Of a stretch of 64,000 nucleotides of DNA, positions 33,180 through 56,466 are shown one piece after another; the stretch's first letter is position 1; the number at the start of each line of letters is the position of its first letter. The stretch comes from Heterostelium album PN500. Taxonomy: Eukaryota; Evosea; Eumycetozoa; Acytosteliales; Acytosteliaceae. Location: assembly GCF_000004825.1 (NCBI RefSeq), contig NW_008805070.1, positions 1 to 64,000 of the forward strand, read 5' to 3'. Position numbers and translations under genes: made by a program. Under the pieces are notes generated by a model. It did not search any database. It was not told the DNA's origin and was given only the letters and a program-made list of their open reading frames with translations.

Positions 33180-36100
33180 ATGAAGTTTGACACTTTATTT
33201 TATTTGACGAGTACCATTTTGGTACTATCAATGGTGGTATCGCTCAATTCCATAGTGGTATTGGCCGATTCACCATTGGGAGATGTAGAAGTAGGAGATA
33301 CCTTCTCTATGAAATCGGTGGAAGTCGAAACCACCTATAAATTCGAAAACGACGATTCACTCAAAGCACCAAAACTCAGTTTTTCACTCACCAGAGGTCA
33401 AGCTGAATTCAAAGATTTAGTTCACCAAGATCCAGGTACCACTAATTTCCGTATTGGTGTAAGATTATTTCTATTAAAAAAAACAAAATCAAACAAAATC
33501 ATTTATTTAAAAATATCTTTTTTTAATAGGCACCAACCGATGTAATTTCAAATGGTAGTAAATTATCATTCTCATTGTTCACTTTGATTTCATTTTTGTT
33601 GGTTAGCACTTTCGCTACAAAGAACAGAATGATTGTATTTTTAGCGATGTTGATTGGATTTTCCAGCTTTGTTTTTGCCATGAATATGACTGACTACAGT
33701 GTAACAGTTACTATTAGAGTACCATCTGGATATCTTTTCAAATCGATTTCATTGGAAACCTCTAGTGGTTCTCTCGATATGAGTGGTCTCCAAGCATCCA
33801 ACATCAATATCAATGCTTGTCATATGAAGGGTAATTTTTCAATTTTTACATCTTTTACTTTAATTATTTTTAACAAATTTAATTTATTTTTAATACCAAA
33901 ACTTAGCTTTCCCAATTAAATTTAATGGATTATCTGTTAGTACTTTAAATATTTGTTCTATCTCATCTGTTGATATGTATTCATTCCAAATGACCTCAAG
34001 TTCCAATGTTACCATTTCAACTGGTGATAAAGTTGATATTAGATTCATGGCAGGTTACACCGGAAAGTTGAATATTCAAACCAATAGTGGTGTCACTCCA
34101 TCTGTCAATGGAACATGTACTCTCAACTCTGATACCGTTAATGGTAAATTGGTTACAAAAGGTGCCTGTGGAACTTCCGATTCTACTCTATCTATCTCTG
34201 CTGATCTTGGTGTTAATATTTTCGCCATCCAAACTTGTCCTTTGAGTTCAACCTGGAGAGATCCACAACCATCTTCCGATGGTCCAGTCTCTCCAGCTAT
34301 CCCCACAGCTGCCAGCCCAGTAGTCTTCAATCTCCCATCGTATAACGATTGGACAATTACAGGTGATTGGTCTGAACCACTAATCTTCAGCCAATGTTCA
34401 GCCGGAGCAAAATCGAACGGAGTTGACGTTGGAGGTGCATTGAATGTTACAATCAACAGAGCATGGGGTCCTGATCAATACCAATTGGCTTCCATGAAAC
34501 AAAATTTCTATTTGCGTGCCGGTGAGAAGTATAATCTCCAAGTCGATCTACTCAGTACCGTTTCCAACCCTGCCAACTATTTATTCGGATTGCAAATCTG
34601 TGTATATGGATATTACAACAGCTCACGTGACAGAACTTGGATCGATCCAAAGCTTCCAAGTGAATGTGCCAACTTCCCTGGAACTGGTGCAGCCTTGGGT
34701 AACCCCAACACCTGGACATCTCACTCTCTCGACTATATCCCAACCAAAGATTTCCCAGTTTCTGTAGTTGGTATCAATCTCTTCTTGAACCAAACCAATA
34801 AGATCAACTCTGTATATTTCCGTAACATGAAATTTACAGTTGCTTCGAAACCAATTGTTAAACCCACTCTTCTCAACAAAGATTCGGAATTGGTAAATCT
34901 TAGAAAGCCAACCACCGGTCTTATGCCACAAGATCGTCTTACCTGTCCGCATCTCCAAAGTGGTTTGCTCCACTGGCATGATCCAGCCACCTGGAATGGA
35001 TCTGTTCCATCGCCATCCTCAGTTATCACACTCCCAGCTAATTCCAAAGTTCTCATCTCCTCATGTTCCATCGACCAAGATGCTGTCTACCAGAAAATTG
35101 TTATTCCAGCAAGCAGTGAATTAATTTTCTCTGATTCCAGCTACACTATGAACATTCACGATGTTGATGTCAAAGGAAAGCTAACAATGGGTTCTTCAAC
35201 TTGTCGTATGAATGGAAATATCGAAATTATTTTCCACGGACAGAAAACAACTTCCGACACCATCACCCAATATCTTGGAAGTAAAGGTATTGCTGTCTCC
35301 AGAGGTGGTTACATTAGTGTCCAAGGTAAACAATACTACAAAACTTGGTCGAGATTGGCAGCAACAGTCTATCCATATGAATCTATTATCTATCTCCAAG
35401 ACAATGTCAATTGGGAAGTCGGACAACGTGTTTTCATTACCACTTCCAAGTACGAAGATGAATTCGATCCACAAAACGAAGAGATGACTATTGCTGCAAT
35501 CAATGGAAACATCGTTCAATTCACCGAACCATTGCAATTCCTTCACTATGGTGGTCAAGAGTATCAAGCTGAAGTCGGTTTGATTTCACGTAGAATTATC
35601 TTCCGTGGTGCAGATGATTCCGATGCCCAACAATTTGGTGGACACGTCCTCACCATGTCGAACGGTCAATTCGCTGGAATCCAACTTACAAAGATGGGTC
35701 AACGTAATCTCAAGGGTCGTTATCCATTACATTTCCATTTGGCAGGTGTTGTAATCAATTCCTACATCTCTGATTGCTCCGTTGAAAAGTCATACTATCG
35801 TTGTTACACTGTTCATGGTACTCACCAGTTGGTAGTTGAACAAAACACCGCTTTCGACGCCACTGGACATTGCTATTATATCGAAGATGGTGTTGAAGAA
35901 AATAACACCATTGCCTACAATTTAGCAGCATATGTACATACCATTGGAAAACCAGCCGCTGGAAATTCACAACAAGGTGAACTATTCTATCAGAACAACG
36001 ATTTAACTCAACCTGCTGATAGTTCTGCTGGTTGTTACTACATTACAAACGCCTATAATCGTATTATTGGTAATGCTGCCAGTGGTGGTTGGGCATCCTA

Positions 36101-37745
36101 CTCATTCCCTAACCTTCCAAAACCAATTGGTAACTTTAAGAATATGACAAACTTTAGTCCGGAATCTAGAACAAGTAATTATTTTTAAATTAATGAACAA
36201 TTATATTATTACAATTTATTAACTATATTTATTATTTTATAGCTCTTGAATTCGATGGTAATTCAGCTCACTCTGCTGGATATTATTTCTGGTTTGGTTC
36301 ATGTATTTATTGTGGAGGTAAACTTTGGTATGAAAATCCAAATGTTGATTCTTTAACCTACAAATCCGGTAGACAAGACAGAGACACTCAAGATGTCAAT
36401 GGAAATCCAGTTTGGATGAGATGGACAAATATGAAAGTTTCACAATGTTCATCAGGTATTTATTTATCTTTTTTTAAATTTTATAAATTAAAAAAATTAT
36501 TAATATTTTTTTTTTAGGTGCAAATCACTGGGGTAATCAAATTGAAATCGATACCTATGAATCGCATGATAATAAGATCTCTGGTACTGTATTTGGTTCT
36601 GCTTGGATCAACAATGCAATTGTAAATGGTTTCTCTAACAATCCAGCTGATAATCGTATTGAATATTCAGATGTAATGGTAACTCGTCAAGGTATGTATT
36701 CATTTAAATATTTATATCATTTTATAAAATTATTAACATAAATTTGAAAAAATAATAATAATTAGGTTTCCAATTCTATGATACTGTTACACAAACAATT
36801 ATTACCAATATTAATTTCAGAAACTTTAAACATGATTCAAATGCTGCCAATCCAGAATCTGATAACAGTGTTATCGTTTCAATGACTCACTCTGATTTAT
36901 ACAAACCACAACAAATCTCTGCAACCAAAGGAATTACATTTACCAATGTCCAAAACACTCAACGTGTCGGTCATCAAATTCGTGAGACTGGATCAAGTAG
37001 ATATTTCAACTTTATCGATTGGGACGGATCCGTTTCAATGGTCTCATCTACACCAAAGATCGTTGGATCCAGTTTGAACTGGTGGAATTTCGATAGTTCC
37101 TGTAGATTCAATACCGATTGGGAGACATGGATCTGTGAACAAAACGGTCGTCAAGTTGGAAATATCCAAGTGGTCGCACCTGGTTTGATCTTTGATGACG
37201 GCAGCACTGAAGATACCTTTGTCAATGTTGGAAACTCTTCGTTGTTCGGACCAAATCTTCCACCAGGTCCACAAACAGCTTTCATCACCTCGAATGCCGG
37301 TATCACTGGTATCCTCGGAATGGGTTGGTATCTTAATTTCTACAATGGTGTGGCGCCACCCTCTTTCAGAGTGGATACACGTCAGGTTCCCTATGGACAA
37401 TACATTCTTTTGGCATTGACATACCCACCACAATCCACCTTTGTTATCAAAGCCGGTAACTCTTGGGACGATCAAAAATACTGGATCACATTGACCACTG
37501 CCAGTTCGCAATCTGGAGTTCTCAACGGTGATGGAACCAAATATTACTTTGACCCAACATCCAACAATCTCTTTATTAAGATTGTAAACAAACGTCTAAC
37601 CGATGACTCTCAGAAATTCACTCGTGGTGGTGTTAGCATCAGAGATTTGGATTGGGGATTCGGTTATTACATTACTGCTACCTGTCCTGTACAGACATGT
37701 GTTAGATCCGACACAACCGCCAAATATCCAACATGGGTAAATTAA
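33180..37745 (+). CDS. large secreted/membrane G8-domain protein
   Basis: Six exons (33180-33458, 33530-33830, 33907-36174, 36243-36455, 36518-36691, 36766-37745) give about 1,404 residues. A signal peptide starts the protein and a second hydrophobic segment lies near residues 105-145 ('FTLISFLLVSTFA', 'MIVFLAMLIGFSSFVFAM'). A G8 domain begins near residue 545 ('LHWHDPATWNGSVPSP') with its run of paired Gly and beta strands. A right-handed beta-helix-like region follows ('YPLHFHLAGVVINSYISDCS'), as in TMEM2/CEMIP and PKHD1L1. Family members act at the cell surface; CEMIP and TMEM2 bind or cut hyaluronan, but no such substrate is established for amoebae. The end at 'TWVN' may be an unspliced donor (gtaaat), so a further exon is possible. 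Confidence 0.8.
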
Positions 37746-46236: not shown

Positions 46237-47224
46237 ATGTTGAAACAAACATTAAATAATTTATTGTTAAAGAAGATTCAACAATATCAATAATATTAAT
46301 ATTATTGGCACTTGTATTACGAATCAATCAAAGAAGTTATGTTCAAATAGTTTAAGATTGACAACAACAACATCATCATCATCATCAGTAAGAACCTATT
46401 ATACACGTGTGTCAGCCATCAATCAGTACAATGGTAATGTAGTCTGCATTGATTCACGTGCTAAAAAAGGTGGTGGTGGTGGTGGCGGTAAGAATGACAA
46501 AAAAGAGAAAGAAGTAGCTTATGACTCTGTGAAGGATGTCGATCTCAACACTATGAAGTCATCGTGCGATGCCACCGTCGACTTTCTTCGTAGAGGATTC
46601 GGTAATATCCGTTGTGGAAGAACCGGACCTGAACTTCTTGATCTCATCACCGTAGAGACACCGAACGGTCCAATGTCAATGAATCAAATTGCAATGGTTA
46701 CCATCAAAGATCCATTAACCTTACATCTTACTCTATTCGATCCATCTGTAAGTTTTTTTTCTTTAAAATCAATCGATTGCTATCATGTTAATTTATTAAC
46801 CATATTGTTATATGTTTATAGCTATTAAAACATGTTGAAAAAGCATTAAGATCTAGATCAGATCTTGGAATGAGTCCACAGATTCAAGATCAATTTATTA
46901 AATTAACATTACCAAAGTATGTTTAATCAAACAATAACTAACTAGTTATTTAAGGTTACTAATCTATTTCTTTAATAAATCAATAGACCAACACAAGAAC
47001 TTAGACAAAATCTTATTAAATCGGTTAATAACTTGAGTGAACAAGCAAAGGTTAGCATTAGAAGACACAGAAAAGAAGGAATGGATTTGATAAAGAAGAA
47101 ATACAAATTGATCAAAGACGACGAGCAAAAGATTGATAAGAACGTTCAAAAGATCACCGATGACTACATTGCAACTCTTACTAAACTGACAGATGCTAAA
47201 ATTAAAGAGATCAATACAAATTAA
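46237..47224 (+). CDS. mitochondrial ribosome recycling factor
   Basis: Three exons (to 46747, 46822-46916, 46987-47224). The core matches RRF: 'DATVDFLRRGFGNIRCGRTG', 'PELLDLITVETPNGPMSMNQ', 'LTLPKPTQELRQNLIKSVNN' and 'KVSIRRHRKEGMDLIKK'. The Arg in 'VSIRRHR' is the residue that contacts ribosomal RNA. RRF splits post-termination ribosomes with EF-G2; eukaryotic copies serve mitochondria. The long open frame has no ATG near its start. An ATG at 46237 begins a presequence-like peptide but is one base out of frame with the rest, at about 46268-46271. Either a short unseen intron or an indel explains this. Confidence 0.85.
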
Positions 47225-47459: not shown

Positions 47460-47540
47460 TTAAGATGAATTTGCAGTTTCCTCATTATTATGACTATTAT
47501 GATAATGACCATCTGCTTTTTCATATATTAATAAATCTAA

Positions 47541-47583
<43 letters not shown>

Positions 47584-49842
47584 TTAATTATATTAGTTAC
47601 AAATTTGTAATTTAAACATAAACTAATTATTACTAACTAAAAACTTACAAGCTTGTTTATCAGTGTTACCACCGAAACTATCGTGATAAGCCTCTTTCTG
47701 TGAAGTATAGGAAATATTGGAACCATCACATTTAAACCATTGTTTACGTCGTCGGATGTAAAGATAGAAATGACCGTTGTCGTAGGATTCCTGTGTCGAG
47801 CCGGTGTGACACAAGATACCCTTGATGCGGTACTTTGTTTGGTTGACTGGGATGAATTTCTTTGGGAAGGTGAAACGGTCACATACCTTGACGGTGCGGT
47901 GGTGCTCTGGTTGGTAGTCGGTTCGGTCAAGCTGTATGATAAAGATATCGGGCATATTCTCAAACGTGATGATAGTCTCAAAAGTATTATTGCCAAACAC
48001 CTCGATATTGTGCTGATAGACCTTCAACGATTCCTCCAAAGAAATGAAACCTTTGACCGGTAGTATTATATTTACAAACTTTTCATTGTGTGTCTTTACC
48101 GACTCGATATTTCCCTGTTTATCTAAAATCACCGATGTCTGTGATAAATCACCTTCAAATATTTGATTTATACATATGTTTTGTTCATAATTTGTTATTT
48201 TCGAAATCTATTTAAATAGACAAGAAAAAGTTAATTAGTTATAAATAATAATAATAATAATAATAATAACAATACTAAATCTTATAATAATAATAATAAT
48301 CATACTCTAGATATCTCTTCAATTAAAGAACATAAAATGATGTTAAGAATCTCTGCAGAGTCTGAACAATGACCGATCATAGTTTGTAGTGGATTCAACT
48401 CTGTTGTCTGCGAACCCATTTCCATTGTTGTAAATATATTAGCAAGACATTGTGTAAATGGAAATCCAATTCTACCTCTAAGTTTTAAAAGTACCTATGA
48501 TATTATTATATAACGTATTGTTAGTATCATTATATCTATATTCGATCGAAAAGATAATAATAATAATAATAATTACTTGTTTTAATGGTGATATATGATA
48601 TAATAATTGAACAACAGATAAAAGTGAACAATTGTTGTCGGATTCGGCTAGACCTACTAGACCTGTTCGTACCCAAGAGGCAGATGCATCGGAGACACGA
48701 AGTGGACCGTCGTTGTTGATCAACAGTCGCGGTCCTTGTGTAGATGATGAGAATATACGTGTGCCTTTCTCCCAGTAGATACCCGAGTTATTGTTGCTCA
48801 TGATGACATATTTGTATTCGAATTTGATGGGTTGCGGTGCGTATAGTTGTCCAATCCACAAGGTATAAGGTATTCCAACCTGAGCGATTGGAATCATCTG
48901 TATTGAATTCTGTAGATCCGATCCAAAGAACTGGCTGACCAACAGGATCGAATGACAATCGGTATTTCCCTCGTCGGTGACAATGAATGTACATATCTGT
49001 GCTGGATAGATAGGAAGTGGATGGGGATCCAGTGGATGCAAGAAACAATACTCTCGCTCACACATCATATATTGATTGTTGCTATTGAGTCGACTGCTGC
49101 TGGCGGTACTACTGCCACCGGGTGATGACGAGTAGGAATAGGAATTGAATGTCAATGTCGATTGTAGCTGTTGTTGTTGATAGTTATTGAGTTGCAGTTG
49201 TTGATCCAACATTGGAAGTATCGGCTGATTCGACTGGAAGTCGAGCGTTGGACACACTCCGTTGCCGCCATTCCACTCATCGCGAATCTCAATGAAGATG
49301 TCGTCGGACGACGACGAATGACTGTTGGGATCGGACCAGAGCATGAACGAAACTTTATGATTACGATCGGATTCCCAGTTGGTCTGGTAGTTTCCATAGA
49401 GAATGTATTTGTACTCGATGTCGATGTACTGCGGAGACACTCCCTTGAGGATGGGTGAGAGTGATTGATTACTATTGAGATGGAATGACGATGACGACGA
49501 CGACGCTGCACTACTGCTTGTCGGTGTCGAACTAGCACTATCGTTATCAGAGTCATCGTTGTCATTGTCGTTGCTGTCCGCAGCTATACCGTTGTCTTGA
49601 TTGCTGTTACTACGCATCAAACCGAACGACGGTTCCAAACGGAATTGATTCTTTGGCAGCGAGCTTGGTAGTCCTTCACAGTGATACTCGCCAATCCACC
49701 AGTCGCCTTCAGTCCACTTCATCTCAATGCCGACCTCGGGATTCCAATATCCCAGGCCTGGCACCGATCCTGCAATCTTTAGATACTGTCCATATTCAAC
49801 TTTTTTCTGTACATAAAACTTTATAATTATTCTTTTCTTCAT
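47460..49842 (-). CDS. CBM20-CBM20-ubiquitin protease fusion
   Basis: Four exons (49842-48577, 48494-48306, 48207-47649, 47536-47460) give 696 residues. Two starch/glycogen-binding CBM20-type modules come first: 'QYLKIAGSVPGLGYWNPEVG' with 'KYILYGNYQTNWESD', then 'PIKFEYKYVIMSNNNSGIYWE'. A Ser/Asp-rich linker separates them. A USP domain follows, from the Cys box 'GLVGLAESDNNCSLLSVVQ' to the His box 'SYDNGHFYLYIRRRKQWFKC' and the usual ending 'AYLLIYEKAD'. The catalytic Cys and His are both present, but the Cys box is diverged (DNNC for GNTC). A carbohydrate-tethered deubiquitinase acting on glycogen-associated proteins is one reading. A (GA)n run lies in the last intron. Confidence 0.85.
47541..47580. 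repeat. (GA)n microsatellite in an intron
   Basis: About 40 bases of GA repeats directly at the acceptor side of the last intron of the CBM20-USP gene. On the coding strand this is a CT-rich polypyrimidine tract, so length changes could affect splicing. Confidence 0.9.
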
Positions 49843-51860: not shown

Positions 51861-53805
51861 TCAATTATCTCTATTTATTTGATCTATTTGATTATTATCT
51901 AATCCAACTACTTGTTTCTGAAGTAATTCTTGATTCTTTGCTTGCTCTCGTTGTGCAAGATGTGGGTTGAGTGTTGAATTGAAGAGTTCCGGTCGTTGCT
52001 TAAAGAGATAGGCACGACCACTGTTGATTAGCTTTGTGAGTGGTCGAATCGATGTCTCTGAAGTGAATAGCTGGAATTCGTGGGCGATCTCACGACACAG
52101 CTGCTCTTGCTTCTTGGTACGTGTTTTCAGTTCGTGTTCGAGTGTCTCGTCGCGTGACTCTTCAAATGTGTGACGTGGCATGCTAAACTGCTCGATGATC
52201 GTGTCGACTGTTGAGCGAAGTGGCTGCTGAATGGCGAACGGGTCGACAAACGCTGCGGGCACCGCGCCGTTAATCAACTCCTCCGGCGACGGAGCAGCCG
52301 CCGACTGTGGTATATACTTGGCTACCTCTTTCGGCAGTGGATGCAGTGCAAGCCATCTTGTAGACGGACTCTTCTTGAACCAAATTGCCTGTCGCCTACT
52401 ATAAGATCTTGTAGCCGATTGAAATTCCATTAAAAAGTTTATTGTATCTATTATACCTATATCTGACTATAAATATATGTTATCAATTGTTGATAACATG
52501 TTAGATATTAAATAAATACTAATTAACTAATTAACTAACTACATACATTCATTGGTGTTAGCAATATATTTATACATTGTTTATAACCTATCGATCTTGA
52601 AACTTGAGAGTGTGGAGATAAACCATTTAGCAGTACCTCTACAACCTCTTTTATTAAACCATTCTGTATCATTAGCTCACAACGATGATTCAGTATATGC
52701 ATCAATGAATCTCTTCTTGTCGTTAAATAAAAAGATCTAAAATCATAACTATCATTTACTTCTCTCCCTATTATTATATAAAATTGTTAATCAATCATCA
52801 TATGAGTAGTAGTCAATGAAAATATCTTTTTTATGTACATACGTTGTTTCTTAAAATCTGAATACTTTAAACCGGTTTGAGAATAAATATAAAAGCTTTT
52901 CGCCAATCTTTTATAATCGTTTCTATTAATTGTTGTTGCTGACTCTGGATCTATATCTTTTAAGATGGTTGCACTTTTTAAATAAGGAAAAAACAAAATG
53001 TTTGGTTAGTTACAACTATATAAGTTGTTAAGCTAAGTTAAGTTATAACTTACACTCTATACCAATTGTTTTCGGCTCTTAAACGTTCCTCTATCATTGC
53101 GAGAGTGTTACGTTCCTCTTCGATGTGAATGGGATAGTCGTTGATTCCATTGATGAGACTGTCGATGTAGAAACCACAGCCACCCACGACAATCGGTATT
53201 TTACCACGTGCCAAAATATCGTTGATTGCATTCATTGCCAGCTCGTGATACTGCTTGACATTGAAGTCGTCGTTCAACTCCAGTATGTCAAAGAGATGAT
53301 GAGGCACCTCGTCTATACGACCTTTGTTACTGCCGATGTTTAGATGTTTGTAGATTTGTACCGAGTCGGCACACACGATCTCACCGCCCAGATTCTTGGC
53401 GAGCTGGAGTGCCATCGCCGACTTACCAATACCGGTTGCACCACTGATAATCATAACCTTCTTTTTCAACTCCATCGATGAACTGTCTGTCATTGAAGAT
53501 ATACTATTCGACAGTAGAGTTGATGACGATGACGATGATGTTCCCATTTTCGATCGATATGAGTTATTACCACTACTACCATTACTACCACCACTATTTA
53601 CAAAAACATTAACTTTGTCATTAACGATATTATTTAAAAATTGATGTGGTGGTGGTGGTGGTAGTGTTGATGATGTCGATGATGAATATCCAATACCAAA
53701 CGTCGATTTGCTATTATTTATGAATAGTTTTGATGATATGACATTATTTATGCCACTACAACTCTGCTTTAACATGAAGTTACTACCTCTAAGATAGTAC
53801 ATCAT
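51861..53805 (-). CDS. tRNA isopentenyltransferase (MiaA/TRIT1 family)
   Basis: Four exons can be joined in frame (53805-53054, 52973-52839, 52736-52543, 52462-51861), about 560 residues; the last two donors are uncertain. The P-loop is 'ISGATGIGKSAMAL', followed by 'ADSVQIYKHLNIGSNK', 'PHHLFDIL' and 'IVVGGCGFYIDSLI'. The C-terminal part keeps 'RCELMIQNGLIKEV', 'GYKQCI' and 'SATRSYSRRQAIWFKK'. The enzyme adds dimethylallyl to A37 of tRNAs, and turnover of such tRNAs yields cytokinins, which act as spore signals in D. discoideum (iptA-C genes). A long Ser-rich N-terminal extension may target mitochondria, and about 180 residues follow the last conserved motif. Confidence 0.85.
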
Positions 53806-55037
53806 TTGTTTCTTTACAAAAGTTGAAATGTTCTGTGTAATGTTGTTGAAAACAAATTAATTGATGGACATTAATTTATCGACAAATTTTCTCCTTTTTA
53901 ATTTTTTTTTTTTTTTTTTGCAAAACTATGATGTTAAAATTAAATAAATCGGATCTTGTCTAATAATATCTGTTATAAAAAAATGACAATTTATTAACTT
54001 TGATTTTGTTTTTTTAACTTCTCACATTTAAATTTATTGTAATTCTCAAATACCACATAGGATTGTAAATATAAGATTCATAATTTGATCTCTACAGTAT
54101 CTGCCTTTAGTGATGAAAACGAGATGTTTGTTCAGTAATGAAAGTTTAACCAAAATTAATATTCTAAATTGAACTTAATAATATTTGTTTATTTTTTTAG
54201 GTTTTGATATAGTCCCAATGTAAAAACCCAAATATAGAAATTGTGATCAATTACAATTGTACTTCTATTATCTTAAAGACATCAGATACTTTTTTAGATC
54301 AATTAAGATATTTCCTCTTCTTTTTTGTTCTGATATTTCATAATTTTAAAAACTGTTAAAAATAAGGTTGAATAATAGAATAAAAGAAAAGAGAGACAAG
54401 AATGATCATTCATTTTTTAGTATTGTTTGTAAATCAACAACAACAACTGCAAACATCACGATACCTTTAACAAAAAAAGTAAATGTTTAATTTGATTTTA
54501 ATAAATTGCCCATTACAATGATGAAAAAAAAATGTAGAGAGCAGATTTTTTTAAATAATTTAAAATAAAAATAGAAAAGGAAAGTACTGTCGTCACAAAA
54601 GGAGGTAACTTTAAAAAAAAAAAAAAAAAAATCTATTATTTTATTTTAAAGTATTTTTTTTTTTTTTGACAATGTTGTTTTTTTCTTCGATTCAGAAGAA
54701 ATCCGACCGCATATTTGAGTGAGTGTGTGTGAGGTTGTCAAGTGAAGATTGCGGCTCAAAAATCAAAAGAAACAGACAGAATTTACAAACTTTCAGGCGT
54801 GCCTTATCTCAATTCATACCCACCACATCGATTCCTCTAAAATCCAAACCACCATTTCCTTTATCAACAATTCTCTCTAAACTTTTGATTCCTCTAACAA
54901 CACAATAACAAAAATCAACAAATCATTTTATCATTTCATTTGCTAGAAATTATATTATCTCTTCTCTCTTCACTATTTTTATCTCACTTATCAAATGATT
55001 TGATTTATAACTACTAGTTTTATTTGAAAGAAGAAAA
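53806..55037. other. long intergenic region between divergent genes
   Basis: About 1.2 kb with A and T tracts (for example near 53900, 54612-54630 and 54650-54668). From 54690 to 55037 the sequence is less extreme and C/A-rich, as expected for a 5' UTR and promoter of the CLN5-like gene. A 61-codon ORF here (54723-54908) lacks coding character. Confidence 0.45.
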
Positions 55038-56466
55038 ATGAATAGAAATATATTTAAAAATAGTTTTGTAGTGACAATTTTGTTATTGTTCATTTTGTCG
55101 TCTTCTTCGGAAGTCGGTGCATTCGACTATGACGAAGATATCGAAGTCTACTATGTAGAGGCACCACTCTTAAAAGCAATGTTCGGTGACTTGCTCGAAA
55201 ATTTCAAAGCTTTTCATTCTGGTGTTTATTTTTATGCAACGTAAGTAATAAATTCAAACACACAATAGCAAATTCAAAAACAACAACTTCAACTTCAACT
55301 TCAACTTTGATAATATTGATATTTAGATCTAATAATTAAGTATATTCTAATTAATTATAATAATTTATATATAGAGAATCAAAAGAAAGTTTTACATTGG
55401 ATTATGTTGCATCTCCAAGTATTTTGGGTGCAGTGTTTCCACAGGTGAATGAAACCACACAGGATATCATTTGGATGAGCAATGGAATTGTCCAGTTCAA
55501 TACAGATTTCAATCAGTCGTACTGGAGCAGTGGACAACAGTATATTATGACGGTGAACGGTGAGACCTTTGCCAAGTATCTCTGCTGGGCAGAGCTCTAC
55601 AACCAGACCAATCCGTTTTACAATCTCTTTGAGGTGCGTGACAACGTCACACTCGAACTGTACTTGAGCTCATCGATCTGCAACGACTTTGTGTGGGCGA
55701 CGTTCGAAGCACTCTACAACCTCGGCGGTGAAATTCCCGAAGCCACCACCACTCCTCCATCGCGTGACTTTATCACGTTGTACGTCACCAAAGAGCCGTA
55801 CGCAATTACCGACCCTGAGGACCCAGCCACCTGGGATCAACTCATGAGCTTCTACGAGAAGATGCAATTGCAACCGAATGAAACGGCTATCCAATTCGTA
55901 TCGTCGCTGGTACAGGCATTCTCTGGTAACTTTTATTACTATCGATCACAAGTATACTACAATCTTTCATTGACCGCACGTGAACCACTCACCTACTCGC
56001 CAGCAGCACTACCATCCGGACCACGTGAACCATCCGTTGTCAAATTTGCACAAGGTTGCAAACTTCCACCACCCTTAAAGACACATAATGGTATTGGTGG
56101 TGGTTGGATATTTATCATTGTGTAAGTTGTTGTTGTTTTATGTATATATATATATATATATATATTATATATTTCCAATGTTTAACTTACTTATTGTTGT
56201 TTATTATTATTATTAGATTATTCTCTTGCTCAACAGTATATATAGCAGGTGGACTCATTTATAATGTTCAAGTGAAAGGTGAACCATTGTCAGCCAATGC
56301 TCTACCAAACTATAATGCATGGATGTCACTGAGTGGATATGTTAAGGATGGTGGATTGTTTATTGTTTCAAAGGTTAGAGGTGGTAGCGGTGTCACTCCA
56401 GGTGGAAATTACACTTCATCTGATGATGTTGCATATCATCAAATTAATAATCAAGATGATGATTAG
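55038..56466 (+). CDS. CLN5-like lysosomal protein with a receptor-type membrane tail
   Basis: Three exons (55038-55240, 55375-56121, 56217-56466) give 399 residues. A signal peptide is followed by clear CLN5 similarity: 'DEDIEVYYVEAPLLKAMFGD', 'DIIWMSNGIVQF', 'SSICNDFVWATFEALYNLGG' and several N-glycosylation sites. CLN5 is a lysosomal glycoprotein mutated in Batten disease and reported as a BMP synthase. Unlike soluble CLN5, the domain here is followed by a membrane segment ('GGWIFIIVLFSCSTVYIAGG') and a tail with 'LPNYNAWMSLSGYVKDG' and a final 'YHQIN'. That pattern resembles the membrane-proximal tail of CI-MPR/ATG27-type receptors. The protein would then be anchored and cycle between Golgi and endolysosomes. 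Confidence 0.85.

Follow-up and report, generated by a model that had tools for sequence, protein, structure and literature searches.

In laforin a CBM20 with a Trp-Lys-Trp site stands at the N-terminus, ahead of a Cys-dependent hydrolase, and this CBM20 is described as binding glycogen (PMC6116066). In TgLaforin the CBM20 is split by long linkers and spread over about 325 residues, and W29, K206 and W278 are predicted to come together in a single site; its binding of maltohexaose is reported to be weak (apparent Kd 20 mM) and to be abolished by K206A and by W278A, and the W29A protein failed to fold (PMC9254107). Since the TgLaforin module does bind maltohexaose, a split CBM20 can still work. 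A second point of comparison comes from the ubiquitin system in the form of RNF213, a very large AAA+ protein. RNF213 likewise carries an N-terminal CBM20 (PMC12203941, PMC12440826), a region for which the results on recruitment to pathogens are described as ambiguous (PMC12203941). It is a ligase, and thus a writer of ubiquitin, whereas the members of the USP family are proteases, or erasers.

Ubiquitin and storage sugars have been brought together biochemically by HOIL-1, which ubiquitinates glycogen and maltose in vitro; ubiquitin-maltose is cleaved by USP2, OTUD1, Cezanne and ATXN3 and not by OTULIN (PMC11962058). As of 2022 the ubiquitination of glycogen in vivo was described as being without evidence (PMC9527308), and a 2025 review describes many non-protein ubiquitin substrates as having no identified deubiquitinases in cells (PMC12203941). 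Keyword searches of open-access papers brought up no title, abstract opening or passage that names a protein joining CBM20 to a USP domain, although such a protein may be annotated in protein databases or in literature beyond that scope; in PMC6260743, PMC11051031 and PMC13147768 the terms shared with the topic are unrelated to it.

A gene of this type is predicted in Heterostelium album PN500, in a window of 64,000 nucleotides (the whole stretch of DNA that was analysed, positions 1 to 64,000 of contig NW_008805070.1). It lies on the minus strand with its ATG at 49842 and the end of its stop codon at 47460, so the coordinates 47460..49842 given in the original prediction are correct. The coding sequence of 2,091 bases specifies 696 residues, arranged as CBM20-1, linker, CBM20-2 and USP. 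Splice sites picked by eye from the sequence yield four exons (49842-48577, 48494-48306, 48207-47649 and 47536-47460) separated by introns of 82 bases (48495..48576; GTAATTAT..TATCATAG), 98 bases (48208..48305; GTATGATT..TTAAATAG) and 112 bases (47537..47648; GTAAGTTT..CTCTTTAG), and GT..AG borders are found in all three introns. The third of these contains a GA/CT dinucleotide repeat tract at 47540-47580. The AT content is 73-89% in the introns and 55-77% in the exons, ranges that overlap because exon 4 reaches 77% and intron 3 has 73%.

Exon 1 (48577..49842, minus strand) is a single open frame of 422 codons that holds both CBM20s and the Cys box of the USP domain, and the fusion of the modules to the Cys box can therefore be read directly from the DNA; assignment of the remainder of the USP domain depends on the three introns. 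Codon usage was scored with a training set of 4,673 codons from five other long frames of the same genome, in which stop codons are absent so that frames with stops are penalised. The frame of the gene was the best of six in 12 of the 13 windows (60 codons each, overlapping) into which exon 1 was divided, the exception being the last, where a reverse frame was slightly higher (-0.06 versus -0.08), and it was likewise highest in exons 2 and 3 (the scoring covered exons 1-3). The protein has no Met in the interval between 348 and 446, so any start that produced the USP domain by itself would sit inside CBM20-2 or would drop the catalytic Cys. With both CBM20s and the Cys box in one exon and this stretch free of Met, separate CBM20 and USP transcripts appear unlikely. 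Judged from the DNA, the CBM20-USP pairing is a real and unusual one that joins two known families.

The identities of the domains, which the original prediction gave as CBM20-type modules before a USP, were borne out by Pfam searches with the whole protein: CBM_20 scored 58.6 bits (E 5.5e-16) over three stretches, and UCH scored 79.6 bits against a cut-off of 23.9 (E 3.8e-22) and covered the profile from position 1 to 254 of 254. With E values up to 1 allowed, the whole protein matched no further Pfam family, and it had no match in NCBIfam, a collection made for bacterial and archaeal genomes. No confirmed relative emerged from bacterial and archaeal genomes when two CBM20s of this genome served as single-protein queries, or from viral contigs when the whole protein was the query, these being collections without eukaryote genomes.

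CBM20-1 occupies 49333..49842 on the minus strand (about residues 1-170, from Pfam and glucoamylase alignments). A low-complexity insertion at about residues 61-134, with much Ser, Asn and Asp, divides it, and in the intact protein Pfam CBM_20 matches it at residues 6-47. When the 74 residues from 61 to 134 are removed, the module scores 49.8 bits, above the CBM_20 cut-off, and among solved structures it matches the starch-binding domains of glucoamylase (2vn4, E 5.6e-5; 1ac0, E 0.0089) and of the cyclodextrin glucanotransferase 4jcm (E 0.00097). Trp33, Lys145 and Trp156 align to Trp, Lys and Trp in both 2vn4 and 1ac0. We take these three residues to be CBM20 binding site 1, an assignment that agrees with the three residues named for TgLaforin, while Tyr17 (Tyr in 1ac0, Phe in 2vn4) and Trp49 (Trp in 2vn4, unaligned in 1ac0) presumably lie near the second binding site. 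A weak Pfam match to RickCE_N in the stretch where CBM20-1 passes into the linker (17.3 bits, cut-off 27, E 0.004) was taken as chance. In pairwise comparison with the other CBM20s of the genome, CBM20-1 scored 44.3 bits with L040 and 26.9 bits with L039, a GH77 glucanotransferase that we take to be DPE2-like. L039 resembles the window protein in having two N-terminal CBM20s, the first of which carries a shorter insertion in the same place, before the EYKY strand; it differs in that GH77 follows the CBM20s where the window protein has USP. Long linkers split the CBM20 of TgLaforin in a similar manner (PMC9254107).

CBM20-2, at 48700..48984 on the minus strand (about residues 287-381), is degenerate. 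By itself it scores 20.8 bits against the CBM_20 cut-off of 23.3, in a match limited to its C-terminal half; a piece that also includes the end of CBM20-1 reaches 30.3 bits and so passes the cut-off, and we prefer the lower figure because the higher sum takes in part of CBM20-1. Compared by hhalign with a profile of four other CBM20s from the same genome, CBM20-2 gave 95%, again in the C-terminal half, which marks it as a relative; exon 1 taken whole gave 88%, with the match falling on the first half of CBM20-1, and a control consisting of the linker at residues 197-282 gave 0.1%. Among solved structures its only CBM20 relative was a glucoamylase at E 0.62, and its best match within the genome is the second CBM20 of L039, weak at 32.3 bits and 36% over 44 residues. 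The pairwise scores with L039 are weak and disagree between the two modules, and we do not claim a DPE2 origin for the pair. Lys344 and Trp357 are kept in CBM20-2 and the first Trp of site 1 is absent. The module probably folds like a CBM20, with binding that is weakened or nil. The proposal of two CBM20-type modules holds, with CBM20-1 split and CBM20-2 degenerate, and the binding aromatics named as a check on it are present in CBM20-1 (W33, W156) with one missing in CBM20-2.

The USP/UCH catalytic domain (residues 396-676) and a short C-terminal tail lie at 47460..48657 on the minus strand (exons 1-4, from Pfam UCH and an alignment with USP7). In that alignment Cys405, His631 and Asp646 are all kept, and we take them to be the equivalents of the USP7 triad, reading the familiar USP7 numbering on the alignment; the catalytic Cys and His of the original prediction are thus both in place, together with the third residue. 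Chains of USP7 (HAUSP) were the best match in a search of solved structures (E 1.3e-9), followed by USP28, USP9X and USP25. The likeness to USP7 is confined to the USP catalytic domain: the window protein has CBM20s and, by Pfam, no MATH or ubiquitin-like domain, and its Cys box has Glu in place of Asn. In a comparison with 29 of 30 USP loci taken from the UCH matches of the genome (the window's own was left out, and several of the loci overlap) the best of the 29 was L009 (C25:412660), at 62 bits and 21.5% identity over 353 positions, a locus that its Cys box and flanks suggest to be USP7-like. Pfam also gave 12.4 bits to a phage tail collar domain within the USP domain, a weak match that was taken as chance.

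It is at the Cys box, GLAESDNNCSLLS, that the domain departs from its family. Glu400 stands five residues before Cys405 where Asn is usual, so the protein lacks the canonical Cys box, a feature that is typical of USPs and not strictly defining for them, and the motif CSLLS is found where C-Y/F-x-N-S/A is expected. A scan of 32 loci on both strands, with identical matches counted once, returned 15 lines: 10 canonical, four off-motif and the window. Apart from the window, 10/10 Cys boxes recognised in the genome have Asn at position -5, a count limited to USP loci with a Cys box by the scan pattern, and the window has the only Glu among the 11. The His box of the window reads GHF, with GHY in the other 15 of 16 lines (30 loci; the pattern requires GHY or GHF), and Asp646 is followed by Gly. 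Deubiquitinase activity is plausible but uncertain, given the abnormal Cys box with Glu for the usual Asn. This abnormality goes unmentioned in the original prediction, whose interpretation is supported in part: as a possibility, the coupling of a glucan to the removal of ubiquitin has the support of the sequence.

The genome supplies a setting in which other CBM20s, USPs and glycogen enzymes can be compared; the match lists are lower bounds. CBM_20 gave at least nine matches at at least six loci. Besides the window these include the GH77 glucanotransferase with two CBM20s (L039), one CBM20 frame without other Pfam match, and another in which the CBM20 is followed by a Ser/Thr/Pro-rich stretch. 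At L041:3327-6440 a single 1038-codon frame combines ankyrin repeats, CBM20, a GDE1-type C2 and GDPD, and at L043 matches to CBM20, GDE1-type C2 and GDPD occur in neighbouring separate frames, which are probably exons of one gene. UCH gave at least 38 matches, and among the matches listed CBM_20 adjoins UCH at the window only; in the next closest pair, on C4, they are about 27 kb apart. For the second UCH family, UCH_1 (PF13423), at least nine matches were found, and the window is not one of the nine listed. At least one locus for glycogen synthase and at least two for phosphorylases were found.

The original prediction had likened the protein to the laforin/malin system of animals. The likeness to laforin is that of an N-terminal CBM20 with a Trp-Lys-Trp site placed before a Cys-dependent hydrolase; the difference is that the catalytic domain of laforin is a glucan phosphatase and that of the window protein belongs to a deubiquitinase family. 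The laforin-type architecture of CBM20 followed by a dual-specificity phosphatase is absent from the window protein, in which Pfam detected no DSP domain. No laforin is seen in the genome either, since none of the 28 listed DSPc matches (at least 28 exist) comes closer than 60 kb to a CBM20, and the analogy with laforin and malin is a loose one. On the side of the ligases, IBR domains of RBR ligases gave at least 19 matches, and the 19 listed do not show a sugar-directed ligase. For the RZ finger, which occurs in RNF213, there are at least two matches on contig C10, candidates from which we conclude nothing.

Seven of ten neighbouring frames scanned with Pfam gave a match, among them ribosome recycling factor, IPP transferase and CLN5, and nothing in the matched neighbours points to glycogen or ubiquitin. 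The ribosome recycling factor gene, perhaps mitochondrial, lies at 46271-47224 on the plus strand (RRF 37.4 bits on the frame 46271-46825, the last exon by eye) and is convergent with the CBM20-USP gene, the 3' ends being about 240 bases apart. A frame of the IPP transferase family, perhaps a tRNA isopentenyltransferase, is found at 53053-53856 on the minus strand (90.2 bits), a relative of CLN5 (ceroid-lipofuscinosis neuronal protein 5) at 55364-56122 on the plus strand (47.8 bits), and a protein with a G8 domain (102.7 bits) and a CEMIP-type beta-helix (157.1 bits) at 33894-36185 on the plus strand.

These observations lead us to propose, with about an even chance of being right, that the gene encodes a USP-family deubiquitinase that has its own glucan anchor and is held by it on glycogen. 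The domains, the one reading frame, the triad and the binding residues come from the sequence, and from them we infer glucan binding, activity, substrates and location. CBM20-1 would use its Trp-Lys-Trp site to bind the alpha-1,4-glucan chains of glycogen, CBM20-2, being degenerate, would add a weak avidity or serve as a spacer, and the USP domain would take ubiquitin off conjugates on or near the glycogen particle, the simplest substrates being ubiquitinated glycogen enzymes. A glycogen-anchored deubiquitinase is favoured by a UCH profile matched over all its 254 positions and by the retention of Cys, His and Asp, by the alignment of Trp, Lys and Trp of CBM20-1 to 2vn4 and 1ac0, and by the absence from the protein of any other Pfam family over cut-off. 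It is favoured too by the glycogen synthase and phosphorylases of the genome and by the presence of its other CBM20s on GH77 and GDPD-type proteins, and the split CBM20 of TgLaforin is described as still able to bind (PMC9254107). Against it stand the abnormal Cys box (Glu400, CSLLS) and the missing first Trp of CBM20-2.

The Cys box makes a pseudoenzyme the main rival, one that we think rather unlikely. The USP fold would then bind ubiquitin and hydrolyse little or nothing, and the protein would be a scaffold tying ubiquitinated cargo to glycogen, for example in glycogen turnover. Asn of the USP7 Cys box is part of the oxyanion hole and Glu400 takes its place; the altered motif after the Cys, the isolation of the window among the 11 recognised Cys boxes as the only one without Asn, and the Gly after Asp646, where many USPs have Asp, point the same way. 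However, all three residues of the triad are kept, and CYLD and USP53/54 are active USPs despite non-canonical Cys boxes. Doubt may instead fall on the anchor, and mainly because of CBM20-2 its specificity for glucan may have been lost or altered: the CBM20 region of an active deubiquitinase might bind, in place of storage glucan, a protein partner, a glycolipid or a sugar on the surface of bacteria. The organism is presumably an amoeba that feeds on bacteria, and RNF213 offers a parallel, the results on the part played by its CBM20-bearing N-terminus in recruitment to pathogens being described as ambiguous (PMC12203941), but the residues of the Trp-Lys-Trp site are kept in CBM20-1 and we regard such a ligand as distinctly improbable. 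We give hardly any credence to an error of annotation or assembly that has run separate CBM20 and USP genes together: the sequence does come from one assembly, yet the 422-codon exon with both CBM20s and the Cys box, its lack of Met between 348 and 446 and the codon usage of 12/13 exon 1 windows all tell against it.

A glycogen-anchored deubiquitinase might also have a more specialised task. In a reading to which we attach only a slight chance, the protein would be a dedicated eraser of ester-linked ubiquitin on glycogen, in which CBM20-1 holds the glucan and the reshaped USP site cleaves the oxyester between ubiquitin and C6 of glucose. Its place among the candidates is owed to the description of many deubiquitinases, USP2 among them, as acting on oxyesters (PMC9527308, PMC11962058), and its premise, glucan-linked ubiquitin in Heterostelium album, is a hypothetical substrate.

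A deubiquitinase that brings its own glucan anchor would be a natural candidate with which to approach both the question of glycogen ubiquitination in vivo and that of the missing deubiquitinases. Were its substrates proteins only, it would still join glycogen storage to ubiquitin signalling in a direct, physical way. If it does erase ubiquitin from glucan, it would be the missing counterpart to the sugar-ubiquitinating ligases and would imply that the ubiquitination of glucans occurs outside animals.
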